Origin: Caulobacter vibrioides
GTDB lineage: Bacteria; Pseudomonadota; Alphaproteobacteria; Caulobacterales; Caulobacteraceae
Length of the DNA: 64,000 nt
Direction of reading: 5' to 3'
Assembly (NCBI GenBank): GCA_001449105.1
Contig: LNIY01000081.1
Location: forward strand, 1-64,000
The position numbers and the translations under genes are program-made. A model generated the notes under the pieces. It was not told the DNA's origin. It ran no database searches and worked only from the letters and a program-made list of their open reading frames with translations. Below, piece by piece: positions 9,190 to 62,649 of the stretch; within the stretch, counting starts at the first letter, position 1; every line of letters starts with the position of its first letter.

Positions 9190-9459
9190 ATGGCCGACGA
9201 CGCCATCCCGCACGCCGACGTTCTGAACTCCACCGCCCAGGGCCAGCTGAAGTCGATCATCGAGCGCGTCGAGCGCCTCGAGGTCGAGAAGGCCGAGATC
9301 ATGGAACAGATCAAGGAAGTCTACCTCGAAGCCAAGGGCAACGGCTTCGACGTCAAGGTGCTCAAGAAGGTGGTCCGCCTGCGCAAGACCGACCGCGCCA
9401 AGCGCCAGGAAGAGGACGCCATCCTCGACCTCTACCTCTCGGCCATCGGCGAGATCTGA
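9190..9459 (+). CDS. gapR: Nucleoid-associated protein GapR (DUF2312)
   Basis: The 89-residue product MADDAIPHADVLNSTAQGQL..ERVERLEVEKAEIMEQIKEV..YLEAKGNGFDVKVLKKVVRL..QEEDAILDLYLSAIGEI is the DUF2312 family. From memory it is nearly identical to C. crescentus GapR. GapR binds overtwisted AT-rich DNA ahead of replication and transcription forks, where it stimulates topoisomerases (established for Caulobacter). The N-terminal half is a long coiled-coil helix; the C-terminal half carries the lysine/arginine DNA-contact residues. The start ATG follows GAGAGATCTCC. A terminator at 9482-9514 follows the gene. Confidence 0.97.
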   Translation: MADDAIPHADVLNSTAQGQLKSIIERVERLEVEKAEIMEQIKEVYLEAKGNGFDVKVLKKVVRLRKTDRAKRQEEDAILDLYLSAIGEI

Positions 9460-9481
9460 TTTCTCCGAGACCTGGATTTTC

Positions 9482-9514
9482 AAGGGCCCTCTTCCTCTGG
9501 AAGGGGGCCTTTTT
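9482..9514 (+). terminator. Rho-independent terminator of gapR
   Basis: AAGGGCCCTCTTCC pairs imperfectly with GGAAGGGGGCCTT around a TCT loop and runs into TTTT, 22 bases after the gapR stop. Confidence 0.75.
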
Positions 9515-9531
9515 GATGCTAGGTTCGCTCC

Positions 9532-9879
9532 ATGCGCGCCAAGCCGCCCGATCCTCGCGCCCAAGCCCGCAAAGCGGCCCTGAACGCCCTCAAGAAGGCC
9601 AGGCGCATGGCCGACAAGGGCGGGGTCGAGCTCTCCGACTGGGAGGGCGAATTCCTCGGCTCGGTGGCCCAGCGCATCGAGACCTACGGCCGGGCCTTCG
9701 GCGACCCGGAAAAGGGCGGCGCCGGCCAGGCCCTGTCGGTCAACCAGACCATCAAGCTGAAAGAGATCACCGCCAAGGCCAAGGGCGAGCGCAAGCCGAT
9801 GAAGCGCGGCAAGGGCTTCACGCGAAAGGGCCGGACGGAGGCGGAAGCCGAGGCGGCGGAGGACGAGGGCGAGGGGTAG
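9532..9879 (+). CDS. Small basic protein of unknown function
   Basis: I recognise no domain in this 115-residue product. The N terminus (RAKPPDPRAQARKAALNALKK) and middle (KAKGERKPMKRGKGFTRKGR) are lysine/arginine-rich. The core EFLGSVAQRIETYGRAFGDP and LSVNQTIKLKEITAKAK looks helical. The tail is acidic (EAEAEAAEDEGEG). The charge pattern suggests a nucleic-acid-binding role, which is only inference. The ATG lies 17 bases after the gapR terminator, so it is a separate unit on the same strand. A family E arm starts 18 bases after its stop. Confidence 0.7.
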   Translation: MRAKPPDPRAQARKAALNALKKARRMADKGGVELSDWEGEFLGSVAQRIETYGRAFGDPEKGGAGQALSVNQTIKLKEITAKAKGERKPMKRGKGFTRKGRTEAEAEAAEDEGEG

Positions 9880-9897
9880 CGGGATCGCTCTTCTTTA

Positions 9898-10425
9898 CCC
9901 TCTCTCTTCGAGAGAGGGAGGGGCCCGCCGCGAAGCGGTGGGAGGGTGAGAGGTTTCACCGCTAGCGGGAGAAATCCCCATTCCTTCCGTTGCACCGCTT
10001 TCACGAGCGAGCCGACCCTGGCGCCATGGACAAGACCGCCAATGCCCGCAGGCTTCGCCAGAACCAGACCCTCGCGGAGAAGGCGCTCTGGAAGCTCGTC
10101 CGCAACCGTCGCCTCGGCGGCTTCAGATTCCTGCGCCAGCTTCCAATCGACCGCTACTTCGCCGATTTCGTCTGCGAGGCTGGAAAGCTGATCGTCGAGC
10201 TGGACGGCGCCGCCCATGAAGGGCGCGAGGACCACGACGAGCGCCGCACGCAGGTCCTGGAACTGTTCGGATACGTGGTCCTGAGGTTTCCCAACGAGCG
10301 GGTTCTCGCCGATCCCGGCGGCGTCACGGACGACATGCTGGCCGCGCTACGCTCTGGAAGGGTGTAACCTCTCACCCTCCCACCGCCTTCGGCGGCGGGC
10401 CCCTCCCTCTCTCCAAGAGAGAGGG
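9898..10425. mobile_element. Candidate element: family E arms flanking a DUF559 nuclease gene
   Basis: The left arm 9898-9956 and right arm 10366-10425 are about 59-base near-perfect inverted repeats. Each has two hairpins: CCCTCTCTC-TTC-GAGAGAGGG, then CCCGCCGC-GAA-GCGGTGGG, followed by AGGGTGAGAGGTT. They enclose only the DUF559 gene, whose TAA overlaps the first bases of the right arm. The unit sits between two convergent host genes, 18 bases from one stop and 4 bases from the other. The same arms occur without the gene at 41015-41352 and 62340-62649. Reading it as an element is inference; no target-site duplication is obvious. Confidence 0.45.
10026..10367 (+). CDS. DUF559 protein, Vsr-like PD-(D/E)XK nuclease fold
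   Basis: The 113-residue product begins ARRLRQNQTLAEKALWKLVRNRRLGGFRF and continues RQLPIDRYFADFVCEAGKLIVELDGAAHE, then VLELFGYVVLRFPNERVL. This is the full DUF559 signature. The family belongs to the restriction-endonuclease-like superfamily and resembles Vsr. The probable metal-binding residues are the Asp of ADFVC and the Glu/Asp of VELDG. The ATG at 10026 is preferred; a TTG 36 bases upstream would add 12 residues not typical of the family. It is enclosed by family E inverted repeats and unrelated to its neighbours. Biochemical function of the family is not established. Confidence 0.9.
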   Translation: MDKTANARRLRQNQTLAEKALWKLVRNRRLGGFRFLRQLPIDRYFADFVCEAGKLIVELDGAAHEGREDHDERRTQVLELFGYVVLRFPNERVLADPGGVTDDMLAALRSGRV

Positions 10426-10429
10426 ATTT

Positions 10430-10900
10430 CTAGAACGCCCCGCCCTCGCGCAGGTTGATGCCGTATTCCAGATAGGCCTTCATCGCGGCCATCATGTGCA
10501 TCCAGCCGCCGGCGTTGCCGTGCGAGGCCTTCAGGCCCTCGGGCGTGTGCGGCCAGCCGGACTCGCCGATCTTGACCATGGTGTTTTCCGCGTCGAGCGC
10601 CACGAAGGTCATCACTACCCGGGTGTCGGGATCGCCGACGATCGCCGAGCCCCATTCCAGCACGATGCGCTGGGGGGCGACCACCTCGCGCACCACTACC
10701 GGGAAACGCTCGTCGAACTCGGGGAACTGCCACAGCACGGTGGTTCCGGCCACCAGCGGGCCGCTGCCCTCGCGCAGGAAATAGCCGTTGAGCCTCGCCG
10801 GATCGACGACGGCGTCGAACACTTCCACGGCGGGTTTGCGGATCTTCAGCTGCACCTCGAAGGCCAGCGGGGTCTTGTCGGATTGGGCGTCGCTGGACAT
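10430..10900 (-). CDS. SRPBCC/AHSA1-type protein
   Basis: The 156-residue protein of the Aha1-C-like START superfamily contains LAFEVQLKIRKPAVEVFDAVVDPARLNGYF, the usual opening helix-grip. LVAGTTVLWQFPEF, IVLEWGSAIVGDPDTRVVMTF and a C-terminal helix AMKAYLEYGINLREG follow. Members bind hydrophobic ligands; the ligand here is unknown. The ATG at 10900 is chosen because a longer start would overlap the ArsR gene. It is transcribed divergently from that regulator with 50 bp between, the usual layout of ArsR/SRPBCC pairs. The regulator very likely controls it. Confidence 0.88.
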   Translation of the reverse strand: MSSDAQSDKTPLAFEVQLKIRKPAVEVFDAVVDPARLNGYFLREGSGPLVAGTTVLWQFPEFDERFPVVVREVVAPQRIVLEWGSAIVGDPDTRVVMTFVALDAENTMVKIGESGWPHTPEGLKASHGNAGGWMHMMAAMKAYLEYGINLREGGAF

Positions 10901-10934
10901 GGCGGTCCTCCCTTGGCGAACGCCGGCATGTAAG

Positions 10935-10950
10935 GTTATAATTCTATAAC
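10935..10950. promoter_or_regulatory. ArsR operator overlapping a -10 box
   Basis: GTTATA-ATTC-TATAAC is a perfect inverted repeat ending one base before the ArsR start codon at 10951. It contains TATAAT (10938-10943), a perfect -10 hexamer seven bases before the ATG. A repressor bound here would block both divergent promoters. The ArsR mRNA may start at its ATG (leaderless). Confidence 0.6.
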
Positions 10951-11280
10951 ATGTCAAGCGCCGCCCAAGACGACCTGCTGTTCAAGGCCCTGGCCGATTC
11001 CCGGCGCCGCCAGATGCTCGACCTGATGAAGGCCGCCCCGCGCACCACGGGAGAACTGTGCGAGCACTTCGCCGGAACGCTGGACCGCTGCACCGTCATG
11101 CAGCACCTGGGCGTGCTGGAACGGGCCGGGCTGATCGTCGTGCGGCGCGAGGGCCGGGTGCGCTGGAACCACCTCGACGCCGGCCCCTTCCAGGACATCC
11201 ACGACCGCTGGATCGGCCCCTACGCCCTGGCCGCCGCCGACCTGCTGAACCGCCTCAAGCACGACCTCGAAGGCGCCTGA
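10951..11280 (+). CDS. ArsR-family transcriptional regulator
   Basis: The 109-residue winged-helix protein contains LLFKALADSRRRQMLDLMKA, then TTGELCEHFAGTLDRCTVMQHLGVLERAGLIVVRREGR (helix-turn-helix plus wing). The C terminus (HDRWIGPYALAAADLLNRLK) matches the subgroup that accompanies SRPBCC proteins. No CxC metal site of arsenic or zinc sensors is present, so it probably senses an organic signal or a partner protein. The operator at 10935-10950 suggests autoregulation and control of the divergent SRPBCC gene. Confidence 0.9.
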   Translation: MSSAAQDDLLFKALADSRRRQMLDLMKAAPRTTGELCEHFAGTLDRCTVMQHLGVLERAGLIVVRREGRVRWNHLDAGPFQDIHDRWIGPYALAAADLLNRLKHDLEGA

Positions 11281-11338
11281 TTGCCGAACGGCGTTCACCG
11301 GACTAGCCTCGCCGCCGACAACGGGGAGGAGCCGTCCC

Positions 11339-14150: not shown

Positions 14151-16124
14151 TCAGTACGGCAGTTCCGGCGCCGTCTGCTGCGGCGGGGTTCCGGCCGGGG
14201 GCGGTGTGGCGCCCGGGTCGGCGGGGGGATGGTCGCCGCCGCCCAGGATGTCGCCGATCGGATCCTCGACCGGCGGCGGGGGCTGCGCCGTGCCGCCGGG
14301 GATCGGGGTGGCCTTCAGGCGCGGCAGGGCCGAGCTCATGAACACCTTCCAGATCTCGGCCGGGGGGCCGCCGCCGCTGACGCGCTTCATGGCGGTGTTG
14401 TCGTCCTTGCCGGTCCACACCGCGGCGACGAAGCCGCCGGTGTAGCCGACGAACCAGGCGTCCTTGTAGTCGCTGGTGGTGCCGGTCTTGCCGGCGATGT
14501 CGTAGCCGGCGACCTTGGCGCGGCCGCCGGTGCCGCCGTTCACCACCTGGCGCATCATCTGGTTCATGTACTGCAGCGACGGCGAGCCGATCACCGACGG
14601 GCGCGGCTGCCGGTCGACGCTGTGGTCATAGAGAACCTTGCCCGAAGCGGTGCGGATGCGCTCGATGCCGTAGCCCTTGGCCAGGAAGCCGCCGTTGGCG
14701 AACGGGGCGTAGGCCTGGGCCATTTCCAGCGGGCTGACCTCGACCGCGCCCAGCGCCATCGACGGGTCGAGCTGGATCTTGCTGGTGATGCCCAGACGAC
14801 GGGCCGTGGCCGCCACGTTGCTGGTGCCCACCTCGTTGGCCAGGCGCGCGGCGACCGTGTTGATCGACTGGGCCAGGGCCGTCTGCAGGGTCATGGAGCC
14901 CAGGAACGTGTTGGTGTAGTTGCGCGGCTCCCAGTTGCCGATCTTCACCGGCTCGTCGACCACCATGACGCTGGGATTGCGGCCCTGGTCCATGGCGGTG
15001 AGATAGACGAACGGCTTGAAGGCCGAGCCGGCCTGGCGGCGGGCGCTGGTGGCGCGGTCGAACTGGCTCTGGCCGTAGTCCTCGCCGCCGACATAGGCGC
15101 GGATGCGGCCCTCGCCGTCGATGGCCACCAGGGCGGCCTGCTGGACGCCCTGCTTGATGTGGCCCTCGACGCCCAGTTGCACGGCGCGCTCGGCCGCCAC
15201 CTGGATCGGCAGGTCTAGCGTGGTCTCGACGACCAGGTCTTCGGTCGGTTCGCCGACCAGCGAGCGCACCTGGGCGTCGACATAGTCGGTGAAGTACTGG
15301 GCGCGCTGGTTGGCCAGGGTGGCCGACACCTGCACCGGGGTCTTGAAGGCCTCGTCGCGCTGCTCGGGGGTGATGGCCTTCAGGCGCACCATCTCGTCGA
15401 GCACCACGGTGGCGCGGCGGGCGGCGCGCTCGCTGGCGCTGACCGGCGAGTAGCGGGCCGGGCCCTTCATCATGCCGGCCAGCAGCGCGGCCTCGCCGAT
15501 GGTCAGGTCCTTGGCGGGCTTGTTGAAGTAGCGCTGCGAGGCGGCCTCGATGCCGTAGGCGCCGGCGCCGAAATAGACCCGGTTCATGTACAGGGCCAGG
15601 ATCTGCTTCTTGCTGAACTTCAGCTCCAGCCAGACCGCCAGGATCAGCTCCTGGGCCTTGCGCTTGTAGTTCTGGGCCGGGCTGAGGAACAGGTTGCGGG
15701 CCAGCTGCTGGGTGATGGTCGAGCCGCCGCGCTGGGGGCCGCCGTCATGGGTTATGTTCCAGATCAGCGAGCGGGCGATGCCCCAGGGGTTGAACCCGAA
15801 GTGGTGGTAGAACTGGCGGTCCTCGATGGCGACGAAGGCGGCCGGCACGTATTCGGGCAGGGCGTCGATGTCGACCGGCGGCGCATACTGGCTGCCGCGC
15901 ACGGCAAGGAGCGCGCCCGAGCGATCCAGGTAGTTGATCGAGGGCTGGCGGGTGACGTCGTACAGCTTGGAGGTGTCGGGCAGGTCGCGCGCGAACACCG
16001 CGAAGAAGGTGACCACGAAGATCAGCCCCCAAACGCCCAGGACCGTCGTCCAGTACAGCAGCGCCTGGAGGGGCGTGCGTTGAGTCTTCGCCGGCTTGTT
16101 TCCGCCGAAGGCGCCGTTAGCCAT
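14151..16124 (-). CDS. Class A penicillin-binding protein (PBP1A type)
   Basis: The 657-residue inner-membrane peptidoglycan synthase has one transmembrane helix at about 22-45. A GT51 glycosyltransferase domain (about 60-250) contains the catalytic glutamate in FVAIEDRQFYHHFGFNP, GGSTITQQLARN and KILALYMNRVYFG-like helix KKQILALYMNRVYFGAGAYG. A transpeptidase domain (about 310-590) has SxxK in GSAFKPFVY, SIN in ALAQSINTVA and KTGT in IAGKTGTTSDYKDAW. The C-terminal 60 residues are proline/glycine-rich and disordered. It polymerises and cross-links the cell wall. Which of the several Caulobacter paralogues this is cannot be decided here. Confidence 0.95.
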   Translation of the reverse strand: MANGAFGGNKPAKTQRTPLQALLYWTTVLGVWGLIFVVTFFAVFARDLPDTSKLYDVTRQPSINYLDRSGALLAVRGSQYAPPVDIDALPEYVPAAFVAIEDRQFYHHFGFNPWGIARSLIWNITHDGGPQRGGSTITQQLARNLFLSPAQNYKRKAQELILAVWLELKFSKKQILALYMNRVYFGAGAYGIEAASQRYFNKPAKDLTIGEAALLAGMMKGPARYSPVSASERAARRATVVLDEMVRLKAITPEQRDEAFKTPVQVSATLANQRAQYFTDYVDAQVRSLVGEPTEDLVVETTLDLPIQVAAERAVQLGVEGHIKQGVQQAALVAIDGEGRIRAYVGGEDYGQSQFDRATSARRQAGSAFKPFVYLTAMDQGRNPSVMVVDEPVKIGNWEPRNYTNTFLGSMTLQTALAQSINTVAARLANEVGTSNVAATARRLGITSKIQLDPSMALGAVEVSPLEMAQAYAPFANGGFLAKGYGIERIRTASGKVLYDHSVDRQPRPSVIGSPSLQYMNQMMRQVVNGGTGGRAKVAGYDIAGKTGTTSDYKDAWFVGYTGGFVAAVWTGKDDNTAMKRVSGGGPPAEIWKVFMSSALPRLKATPIPGGTAQPPPPVEDPIGDILGGGDHPPADPGATPPPAGTPPQQTAPELPY

Positions 16125-41014: not shown

Positions 41015-41352
41015 CCCCTCTCTCTTCGAGAGAGGGAGGGGCCCGCCGCGCAGCGGCGGGAGGGTGAGAGGTTTCACCGCCAGCAGGCAAACCTCACTCC
41101 CTGCCCTTTTCCGCCGTCATCCCGGCCGGACACCCGCGAAAGCGGGTGGTAGAGCCGGGACCCAGCGGCCGCCGCATTGCATCGGCCAGGGCTCGGCGGC
41201 GAACCCAGCCACAGCGCCCAGTCTCCTGGGTCCCGGATAAGCCCGGCGGGCTTTCCGGGATGACGGTGCTTGGGGGCATCCAGACAGCTTGTAACCTCTC
41301 ACCCTCCCACGCCTTGCGGCGCGGGCCCCTCCCTCTCTCACTGAGAGAGGGG
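41015..41352. repeat. Family E arms enclosing a family B element
   Basis: The left arm 41015-41073 (CCCCTCTCTCTTCGAGAGAG..GGAGGGTGAGAGGTTT) and right arm 41292-41352 (AACCTCTCACCCTCCCACGC..GAGAGAGGGGG) are inverted. A family B pair occupies 41115-41266. Same order and spacing class as 62340-62649. It starts 9 bases after the diiron gene stop. No gene lies in 41006-41453. Confidence 0.8.
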
Positions 41353-62339: not shown

Positions 62340-62649
62340 CCTCTCCCAGAGGGAGAGGGAGGGGCCCATGCGCAGCATGGGAGGGTGAGGGGTTTCGGCA
62401 TCTGCCGGAAACCCCGATCCCCTTAGTCATCATCCCGGCCGAAGGTTCGTGCAGCGGACCGTAGAGCCGGGACCCAGGAGCCGCCGCACTGCATTGGCGA
62501 CCGCTAGGGCTGTGAACCCTGGCCACGGCGCCCACTTTCCGGGATGACGGCCGTTGTTGGCTTTGGCAGCGCTTCAACAGGCCAGCTGTGAAACCTCTCA
62601 CCCTCCCACCGCTTCGCGGCGGGCCCCTCCCTCTCTCCAAGAGAGAGGG
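62340..62649. repeat. Family E arms enclosing a family B element
   Basis: The left arm 62340-62395 (CCTCTCCCAGAGGGAGAGGG..GGAGGGTGAGGGGTTT) and right arm 62592-62649 (AACCTCTCACCCTCCCACCG..AAGAGAGAGGG) are inverted. A family B pair lies at 62427-62550 between them. It ends directly at the stop codon of the AcoR-like gene. Together with the aldehyde dehydrogenase promoter it explains the gene-free stretch 62214-62649. Confidence 0.8.

Follow-up and report, generated by a model that had tools for sequence, protein, structure and literature searches.

A DUF559 nuclease gene between inverted triplex-type palindromes as a probable REP-like mobile element in Caulobacter vibrioides

A discrete unit of 528 bp, in which a DUF559 gene of the PD-(D/E)XK type stands between two inverted arms, has been found at positions 9898-10425 of the window, by which we mean the whole stretch of 64,000 nucleotides of Caulobacter vibrioides DNA that has been analysed. 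We regard this unit as probably an autonomous REP-like mobile element with DUF559 as its mobilising nuclease, a role that we infer, and a preliminary description of the same DNA that had interpreted the element in this way is supported. For the wider proposal, that the dedicated mobilisers of TM/PIT triplex-forming palindromes are the DUF559 nucleases, YcjD of E. coli K-12 among them, and that they act via stem-plus-third-strand recognition and nick-and-copy insertion, we see an even chance. The features of the element and of its gene-less copies in the window are the following.

9898 to 9960, forward strand: left (upstream) arm, from a local alignment score of 52 with the right arm in reverse complement.
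9898 to 9918, forward strand: outer hairpin of the left arm, CCCTCTCTC-TTC-GAGAGAGGG, from the fold; a bare copy stands at the orthologous site in genome G074 and similar ones in G034 and G001.
9924 to 9942, forward strand: second hairpin of the left arm, from the fold.
9944 to 9952, forward strand: tail GGGTGAGAG, which mirrors GAGAGAGGG of the outer stem except that a T replaces one A, a candidate triplex third strand from the mirror-rule test and comparison with TM_ECO.
9961 to 10025, forward strand: 5' leader of the DUF559 gene, whose first bases inside the arm are common to gene-less copies.
10026 to 10367, forward strand: DUF559 gene, 113 aa from the ATG, from the PF04480 match, the predicted fold and dN/dS.
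10361 to 10425, forward strand: right (downstream) arm, whose inner edge bears the TAA stop of the gene, from local alignment and fold.
10405 to 10425, forward strand: outer hairpin of the right arm, from the fold.
about 41016 to 41351, strand not applicable: gene-less (non-autonomous) copy, whose core holds another palindromic repeat (CGTCATCCCGG...).
about 62340 to 62649, strand not applicable: gene-less copy whose two arms belong to different stem/tail subtypes (CCTCTCCC/GAGGGG and CCCTCTCTC/GAGAGG).

Aligned in inverted orientation, the left and right arms are 97% identical over a core of 34 nt and 72% identical over an ungapped stretch of 61 nt. The segments 9898-9953 and 10368-10425 each fold into two hairpins, with z-scores of -3.4 and -4.3, and the conserved tail lies outside the two hairpins of each arm. 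The gene likely starts at the ATG at 10026, with a TTG at 9990 also open, and the homologous inner edge of the right arm includes its TAA stop at 10365-10367. Accordingly, the preliminary account of inverted arms of two hairpins each, which enclose only a DUF559 gene and overlap its stop codon on the right, has been confirmed, a single PF04480 reading frame lying between them, and the two further copies with a noncoding core that it had placed in the window have been found as well. An Rfam search of the window at the gathering threshold has given no match.

The arm consists of a stem and a following tail that mirrors the purine strand of the stem. Among 122 distinct arms that bear the tail motif in this genome and its relatives, whose counts within one family share descent and are hence non-independent, stems GAGAGAGGG are paired with tails G(A/T)GG in 82 of 83 cases and stems GGGAGAGG with tails GGG(G/C) in 29 of 31, the other stems numbering eight. 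For 73 arms from many taxa the mean mirror match is 0.917, against 0.856 (sd 0.008) when tails are swapped between loci, and 64 of the 73 reach at least 0.85; the test allows a second hairpin between stem and tail, as linkers of 1-6 nt alone undercount such arms. Across several arm families, A positions of the stem are mirrored by A or T in the tails. By inspection, the arms of the window show the pyrimidine stem, the purine stem and the mirrored purine third strand of TM_ECO (earlier PIT), a repeat described as having 23 copies in E. coli K-12 and relatives of its kind in more than 260 genomes (PMC4666352). In place of the 3-nt linker that joins stem and third strand in TM_ECO, a second hairpin intervenes in the window arms, as it does in Caulobacter at large and in many other taxa, and the short linker is present in many other arms (e.g., L105). 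The arm is thus of the intrastrand-triplex motif type as judged from its letters, and triplex folding of the window arms is putative. For TM_ECO itself, the portions of the original report that we draw on describe triplex formation in vitro, a stable triplex in vivo as unsupported, and transposase or integrase remnants as 'never found' in the gene contexts of its sites (PMC4666352, 2015); the words 'duf' and 'nuclease' are absent from the main text of that paper.

Within this genome (G000, 5.32 Mb in 160 contigs) the arm motif CCTCTCACCCTCCC occurs 126 times with at most one mismatch, against 14 times for the reversed pattern. Of 30 exact matches, the first to be retrieved, all but one (L012) are faced by a partner motif within 800 bp, and these 29 represent 17 distinct pairs, 14 of them beyond the three of the window, with motif-to-motif spans of 79-442 bp. 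The asymmetric inner ends, GGTTTCACCGC on one side and GTAACC or GTTACC on the other, are common to the gene-bearing copy and several gene-less ones, a pattern that would be expected of internal-deletion derivatives. In 456 kb of this genome, composed of the window and stretches picked around arms, there are 21 arm pairs and 17 single motif hits, and only 2 of the 21 pairs have a core above 300 bp, both of which hold DUF559 and no other gene. Five DUF559 genes have been found in the genome, and inverted palindromes enclose every one of them: the arms described here in three cases, with each of the other two having arms of a family of its own. For one of the five (L004) the arms have been judged by eye, its automatic score being only 16. 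At positions 3653-4091 of L186 (the same copy as L003) lies a second copy of the element, in which the DUF559 frame is shifted near the C-terminus and which is apparently a dying gene-bearing copy. The longer gene-less cores (41016-41351, 62340-62649, L010, L016, L023 and L028) contain the palindromic repeat CGTCATCCCGG...CCGGGATGACGG. Solo hairpins of the CCTCTC type without a tail stand in the window at 2348, 6678, 42658, 56509 and 56618, possibly as leftovers of deleted elements or as members of other arm families.

The recurrence of the unit has been followed by aligning window positions 9240-11300 to 75 genomes of the genus. It has been aligned without its neighbouring flanks in at least 51 rows, one of which is the second copy of this genome, and among the 51 rows listed, a set that leaves out 9 partial rows starting at 673-805, 48 start at query positions 656-661, 43 end at 1184-1193 and 41 do both. 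At the orthologous site of the element, G002 has the unit, G074, G034 and G001 are without it and retain one bare hairpin, and G009 and G003 carry a different palindromic repeat of roughly 190 bp (CGTCATTCCCGCC...). G000 and G006 share a gene-less copy (L176, about 15883-16095), and its site is hairpin-free and empty in G002, G003, G009 and G074, with one bare hairpin in G034. The comparison of filled and empty sites proposed in the preliminary description has therefore turned out in two ways: hairpin-free empty sites exist in four genomes for a gene-less copy, and the DUF559 site is without a perfectly clean joint. Neither a target-site duplication nor a clean recent insertion joint has been identified in the filled-versus-empty comparison, where the flanks are diverged or rearranged. 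The asymmetric hairpin loops of the two arms are identical as inverted repeats in 23 of 56 loci and as direct repeats in none (24 of 58 inverted with duplicate loci kept). As no loops match as direct repeats, the arms are terminal inverted repeats rather than copies of a duplicated target, and a target-hairpin duplication, with the bare hairpins as insertion target, is rejected on the same counts. A better reading of the bare hairpins at empty sites is that deletion has left them behind, comparable to the alx-sstT interval of E. coli strain Eco-15, with the direction of change presumed.

The association of DUF559 with such arms extends far beyond the genus. When 350 bp on each side of DUF559 matches have been compared for inverted similarity, arms with a score of at least 22 have been found at 80 of 102 distinct loci (82 at a score of at least 18), while of 341 control windows, shifted inside those loci, none reaches 22 and one scores 18; both thresholds were chosen after the control distribution was seen. 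The 102 loci derive from 114, of which 9 with incomplete flanks have been left out to give 105 (83 positive at 22 or above, 85 at 18 or above), and from these three duplicates have been removed. By set, 60 of 74 named loci from a public genome collection, which were picked by similarity to the DUF559 protein of the window, 16 of 23 loci of the genus and 4 of 5 of this genome are positive at 22 or above. Flanks swapped between different loci reach that score in 153 of 1000 cases, as would be expected if arms are common to different elements. In a phylum-wide sample, scored with the threshold from the 341-window control set, 35 of 60 DUF559 loci have arms at 22 or above and 41 at 18 or above; these are 60 of 63 matches with E up to 4.6e-21 from 150 genomes, with this genome excluded, some close relatives included and L253 being the same locus as L224. 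In the order of Serratia, where 15 strong loci were usable, no more than 5 have arms at 22 or above (7 at 18 or above), 17 loci having been examined and L225, with a short flank, and L227 left out. Arm-flanked examples extend to Chloroflexi, Omnitrophota and Planctomycetes. Hence the arm association that the preliminary description had predicted for related genomes has held, at a weaker level in the order of Serratia.

Scores below 18 have been obtained for 20 of the 105 loci. Nine of these low scorers have the arm motif on one side only (L040, L041, L068, L086, L116, L117, L119, L142 and L144), and two from Serratia (L060 and L135) have an arm pair just to one side; in the fetched flanks of eight others (L055, L061, L063, L064, L099, L101, L104 and L139) neither of two arm patterns has been found. 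Very strong direct as well as inverted repeats stand on both sides of DUF559 at L048, L054, L070, L113 and L256 (direct scores 106-170), where a complete arm pair may lie on either side of the gene or elements may stand in tandem.

The abundance of the arms tends to follow the presence of the gene. Across the 75 genomes of the genus, and with the relatedness of genomes ignored as in all dose and co-occurrence statistics given here, the count of CCNCTCACCCTCCC and the E-value of the best DUF559 match are correlated (Spearman 0.73, p 9e-14); this motif is present in 57 of the 75, with 4 hits overall for the reversed control. The 31 genomes with a DUF559 match of E at or below 1e-40 have a median of 39 copies and none of them has zero, against a median of 2.5 copies and 18 genomes at zero among the other 44. 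The related motif GGGNGAGGGNNRGGGTGNGGG has been found in 22 of 30 genomes from several phyla, hand-picked from 80 named ones as 24 with arms and 6 without, and the reversed control has no hit in any of the 30; its copies number 203 in one genome of the Omnitrophota, 141 in one of the Dehalococcoidia and 349 in Serratia. The last of these (G099, L060) has 349 triplex-type motifs and one DUF559 match, with the arm pair just downstream instead of flanking. Among 148 genomes of the order of Serratia, GGGNGAGGGNNRGGGTGNGGG is present in 8 of the 15 whose DUF559 match is strong, against 5 of the other 133 (Fisher p 1.4e-6), a split at E<1e-20 that was set after the list was seen and that becomes 8 of 28 against 5 of 120 when all 28 matching genomes are counted as positive. 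A profile of 91 sequences has found no stand-alone DUF559 in the motif-bearing G216, G151, G171, G233 and G244, and G028 of the genus likewise has the arm motif and no stand-alone match. In G216, of the order of Serratia, 67 motif copies accompany only a weak DUF559 match inside a frame of 1863 aa, which represents either an orphan repeat population or the work of a different enzyme. Protein and arm similarity covary modestly across taxon groups (Mantel rho 0.25, p 0.001), and a one-to-one coevolution of arm and protein is not supported by so modest a covariation.

An unlikely alternative to DUF559 as the mobilising nuclease is that another enzyme moves the palindromes in trans and that DUF559 is cargo which aids the persistence of the element. 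Gene-less copies are indeed more numerous than gene-bearing ones, some repeat-rich genomes are without DUF559, and the covariation of protein and arm is modest. A search for transposases, which covered the Y1 family PF01797, has found matches in 22 of the 75 genus genomes, among them one each in the arm-rich G017 (73 arms) and G016 (54). However, no RAYT-type Y1 match has come from the six genus genomes with the most arms (G000, G006, G020, G009, G002 and G029), and Y1 is present in G037 and G049, which have zero arms. A RAYT as the mover is therefore disfavoured, the single matches of G017 and G016 notwithstanding. Moreover, the only two of 21 arm pairs with a longer core in the 456 kb contain DUF559 alone, and mere cargo would not readily be expected to accompany several arm families, and to do so in several phyla, as DUF559 does.

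The preferred reading, with DUF559 as the mobilising nuclease, also draws on the properties of the protein. The PF04480 match has 144.6 bits against a curated cut-off of 20.6 (E 1.2e-42). R11, E18, W22, D47, F48, D60, G61, H64, G82 and R87 are invariant in 91 sequences, and E18, D47, D60 and H64 form a putative active site by analogy with the passage on VsrA in PMC12907096. For the modelled structure (mean pLDDT 87.6) the first match is 3hrl, a Neisseria protein described as putative endonuclease-like, followed by the homing endonuclease I-Bth0305I (3r3p, Foldseek E 7e-5), with Vsr further down; the sequence profile gives E 3e-38 for 3hrl and 5e-5 for 3r3p. On the basis of model and profile, I-Bth0305I is the nearest solved relative of known function. 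Among relatives DUF559 is under purifying selection, with a median dN/dS of 0.19 (range 0.08-0.32, 65 pairs), the set leaving out L037 for its in-frame stop and including both L036 and L133, which are the same locus. Few plasmids (33 of 72,556 records) and very few phages (3 of 50,697 records) encode the protein, and a search of the anti-phage defence collection PADLOC-DB with DUF559 has given no match at E up to 1. The element encodes no DDE, HUH or serine/tyrosine recombinase, the PD-(D/E)XK nuclease being the sole enclosed gene.

Quite improbable in our estimation is a function in host repair or structure processing, in which a Vsr-like or cruciform- or triplex-cutting DUF559 limits the harm of palindromes, so that linkage is favoured with no role in spreading. 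It is in line with the resemblance of the fold to Vsr, to which YcjD was tied by profile in 2005 (PMC1189080), and with ycjD being usually single in the E. coli genomes that bear it. It is also in line with published statements on VsrA of C. crescentus, which has a DUF559 domain, is proposed to be a mismatch-repair nuclease and is required for the SOS response of a Caulobacter methyltransferase mutant (PMC12907096); that VsrA in excess induces no SOS by itself, as the same source states, speaks against the preferred mobilising role. Against the repair reading, many relatives have several copies per genome, up to 13, the unit recurs as a block together with its arms, and broken copies exist (a frameshift in L003, an in-frame stop in L037). 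Multiple copies, block movement and broken copies argue for an element-like entity rather than a housekeeping repair gene. An artefact of landing sites, in which intergenic palindromes attract insertions or duplicate around genes between convergent genes and the arms are not the element's own, is already disfavoured and most improbable: the elements adjoin stop codons, and in relatives the corresponding interval can hold a different palindrome, but the ends are fixed without shared flanks, the inner ends are common to gene-bearing and gene-less copies, the loops are identical only as inverted repeats and none of the 341 controls scores as the loci do.

For DUF559 as a mobiliser of TM/PIT palindromes, E. 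coli offers a second view. The annotated DUF559 gene of K-12, ycjD (1351407-1351760), lies 168 bp from TM_ECO no. 9, which is placed at 1351204-1351239 in Table 1 of PMC4666352, and a decayed arm overlaps its 3' end as judged by eye. The chance of such proximity for 23 random copies is about 0.004, with intergenic restriction ignored. Of 5426 E. coli genomes 3365 have ycjD, and a PF04480 search of the E. coli control genome has given no match. TM pairs are polymorphic in E. coli: at fepB-entC (L316), an 801-bp query with the TM pair inside it is matched over 80% or more of its length in 2752 genomes, and among the matches listed the shorter two-piece ones are about 186 bp shorter. This polymorphic stretch of about 186 bp exceeds two TM motifs, and from its width the mobile unit of E. 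coli may extend past the hairpins. At alx-sstT, strain Eco-15 has one hairpin and K-12 two, the difference lying between two copies of CCCTCTCCC, and the single hairpin resembles the bare hairpins of Caulobacter; strain differences at hrpB-mrcB and lldD-trmL are less clean. The fabI-sapF interval has been rejected as an empty site of ycjD, as ATCC 25922 and EC-TO143, the two strains examined whose match stops before ycjD, have an efflux operon beside fabI. Positions 4700-6200 of L313 hold the TetR regulator and the RND efflux genes that adjoin fabI in these two strains.

A mechanism may be outlined as follows. The DUF559 protein, being of the Vsr/I-Bth0305I type, would recognise the folded or extruded arm and would then nick or cut DNA, at the arm or at the target. 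The break would be repaired by copying the element in, as in homing. A gene-bearing copy would act in cis and supply gene-less copies in trans, and a later deletion between the two stems would produce a single hairpin, kept as a bare intergenic palindrome. PD-(D/E)XK nucleases are not known to join DNA ends. Since such an enzyme joins no strands itself, host repair must supply the joining, and a homing-like, repair-dependent route is likelier than true transposition. The parallel with autonomous RAYT transposases and non-autonomous REP sequences, drawn in the preliminary description, stands as regards architecture, namely the discrete unit, the inverted arms and the dispersed gene-less copies, whereas mobilisation by DUF559 is what we still infer.

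Compared with known systems, the element resembles RAYT/REP/REPIN in its palindromes, which are scattered and frequently paired in inverted orientation around a copy bearing a single gene, in the rarity of that gene on plasmids and phages, and in the repeats that occur without the gene in some genomes. It differs in its enzyme, a PD-(D/E)XK nuclease instead of a Y1 HUH transposase (PF01797 has 0 matches in G000), and in arms with a mirror-repeat tail of the triplex motif instead of the GTAG or CGTC tag reported for REP in the section concerned of PMC3733652. With TM_ECO/PIT it shares a motif, many arms outside Caulobacter fitting the consensus type CCCTCNCCC-loop-GGGNGAGGG-N3-GGGNGAGGG as given in PMC4666352, and inverted pairs occur in E. 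coli too; unlike there, the motif is tied to a gene and many arms have the second hairpin before the third strand. I-Bth0305I (3r3p) and Vsr (1vsr, 1cw0) have the same fold as that modelled for DUF559, whereas the DUF559 protein described here stands alone with a length of about 113 aa, is encoded between palindromes and is not intron-borne. The Caulobacter MITEs and CIR elements are likewise short, gene-free intergenic repeats of Caulobacter and other alphaproteobacteria, and CIR elements are described, in the part of the source that treats them, by their GANTC sites and with a mode of movement not known (PMC2229807). By that description they are set apart from the present arms, which are defined by stem and mirrored tail and have gene-bearing relatives. 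The unit has terminal inverted repeats, and it would resemble classical transposons and IS in this respect if DUF559, the presumed mobility gene, has the proposed role. Among the titles and abstracts listed from the open-access literature, none links DUF559 with inverted repeats or triplex palindromes. DUF559, the TM/PIT repeats and the RAYT/REP concept are each known separately and, provided that DUF559 has the proposed role, their joining appears to be new; under the same proviso, a homing-type nuclease as sole protein together with triplex ends would fit no family compared here.

The spread of TM/PIT repeats has previously been without an agent, for which DUF559 is offered as a candidate, and the only published role of DUF559 in the literature examined, as far as the section on VsrA in PMC12907096 goes, is the proposed Vsr-like repair. 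Two unknowns, the spread of TM/PIT repeats and the role of DUF559, are thereby joined across several phyla, and the question can now be addressed in E. coli K-12, with ycjD, 23 copies of TM_ECO and strains at hand. If the proposal is true, a single small homing-type nuclease would maintain whole bacterial repeat populations, as a second and enzymatically unrelated solution to the role that RAYT plays for REP sequences, and the unit described here would represent a class of autonomous elements with a homing-type nuclease alone and triplex DNA ends.
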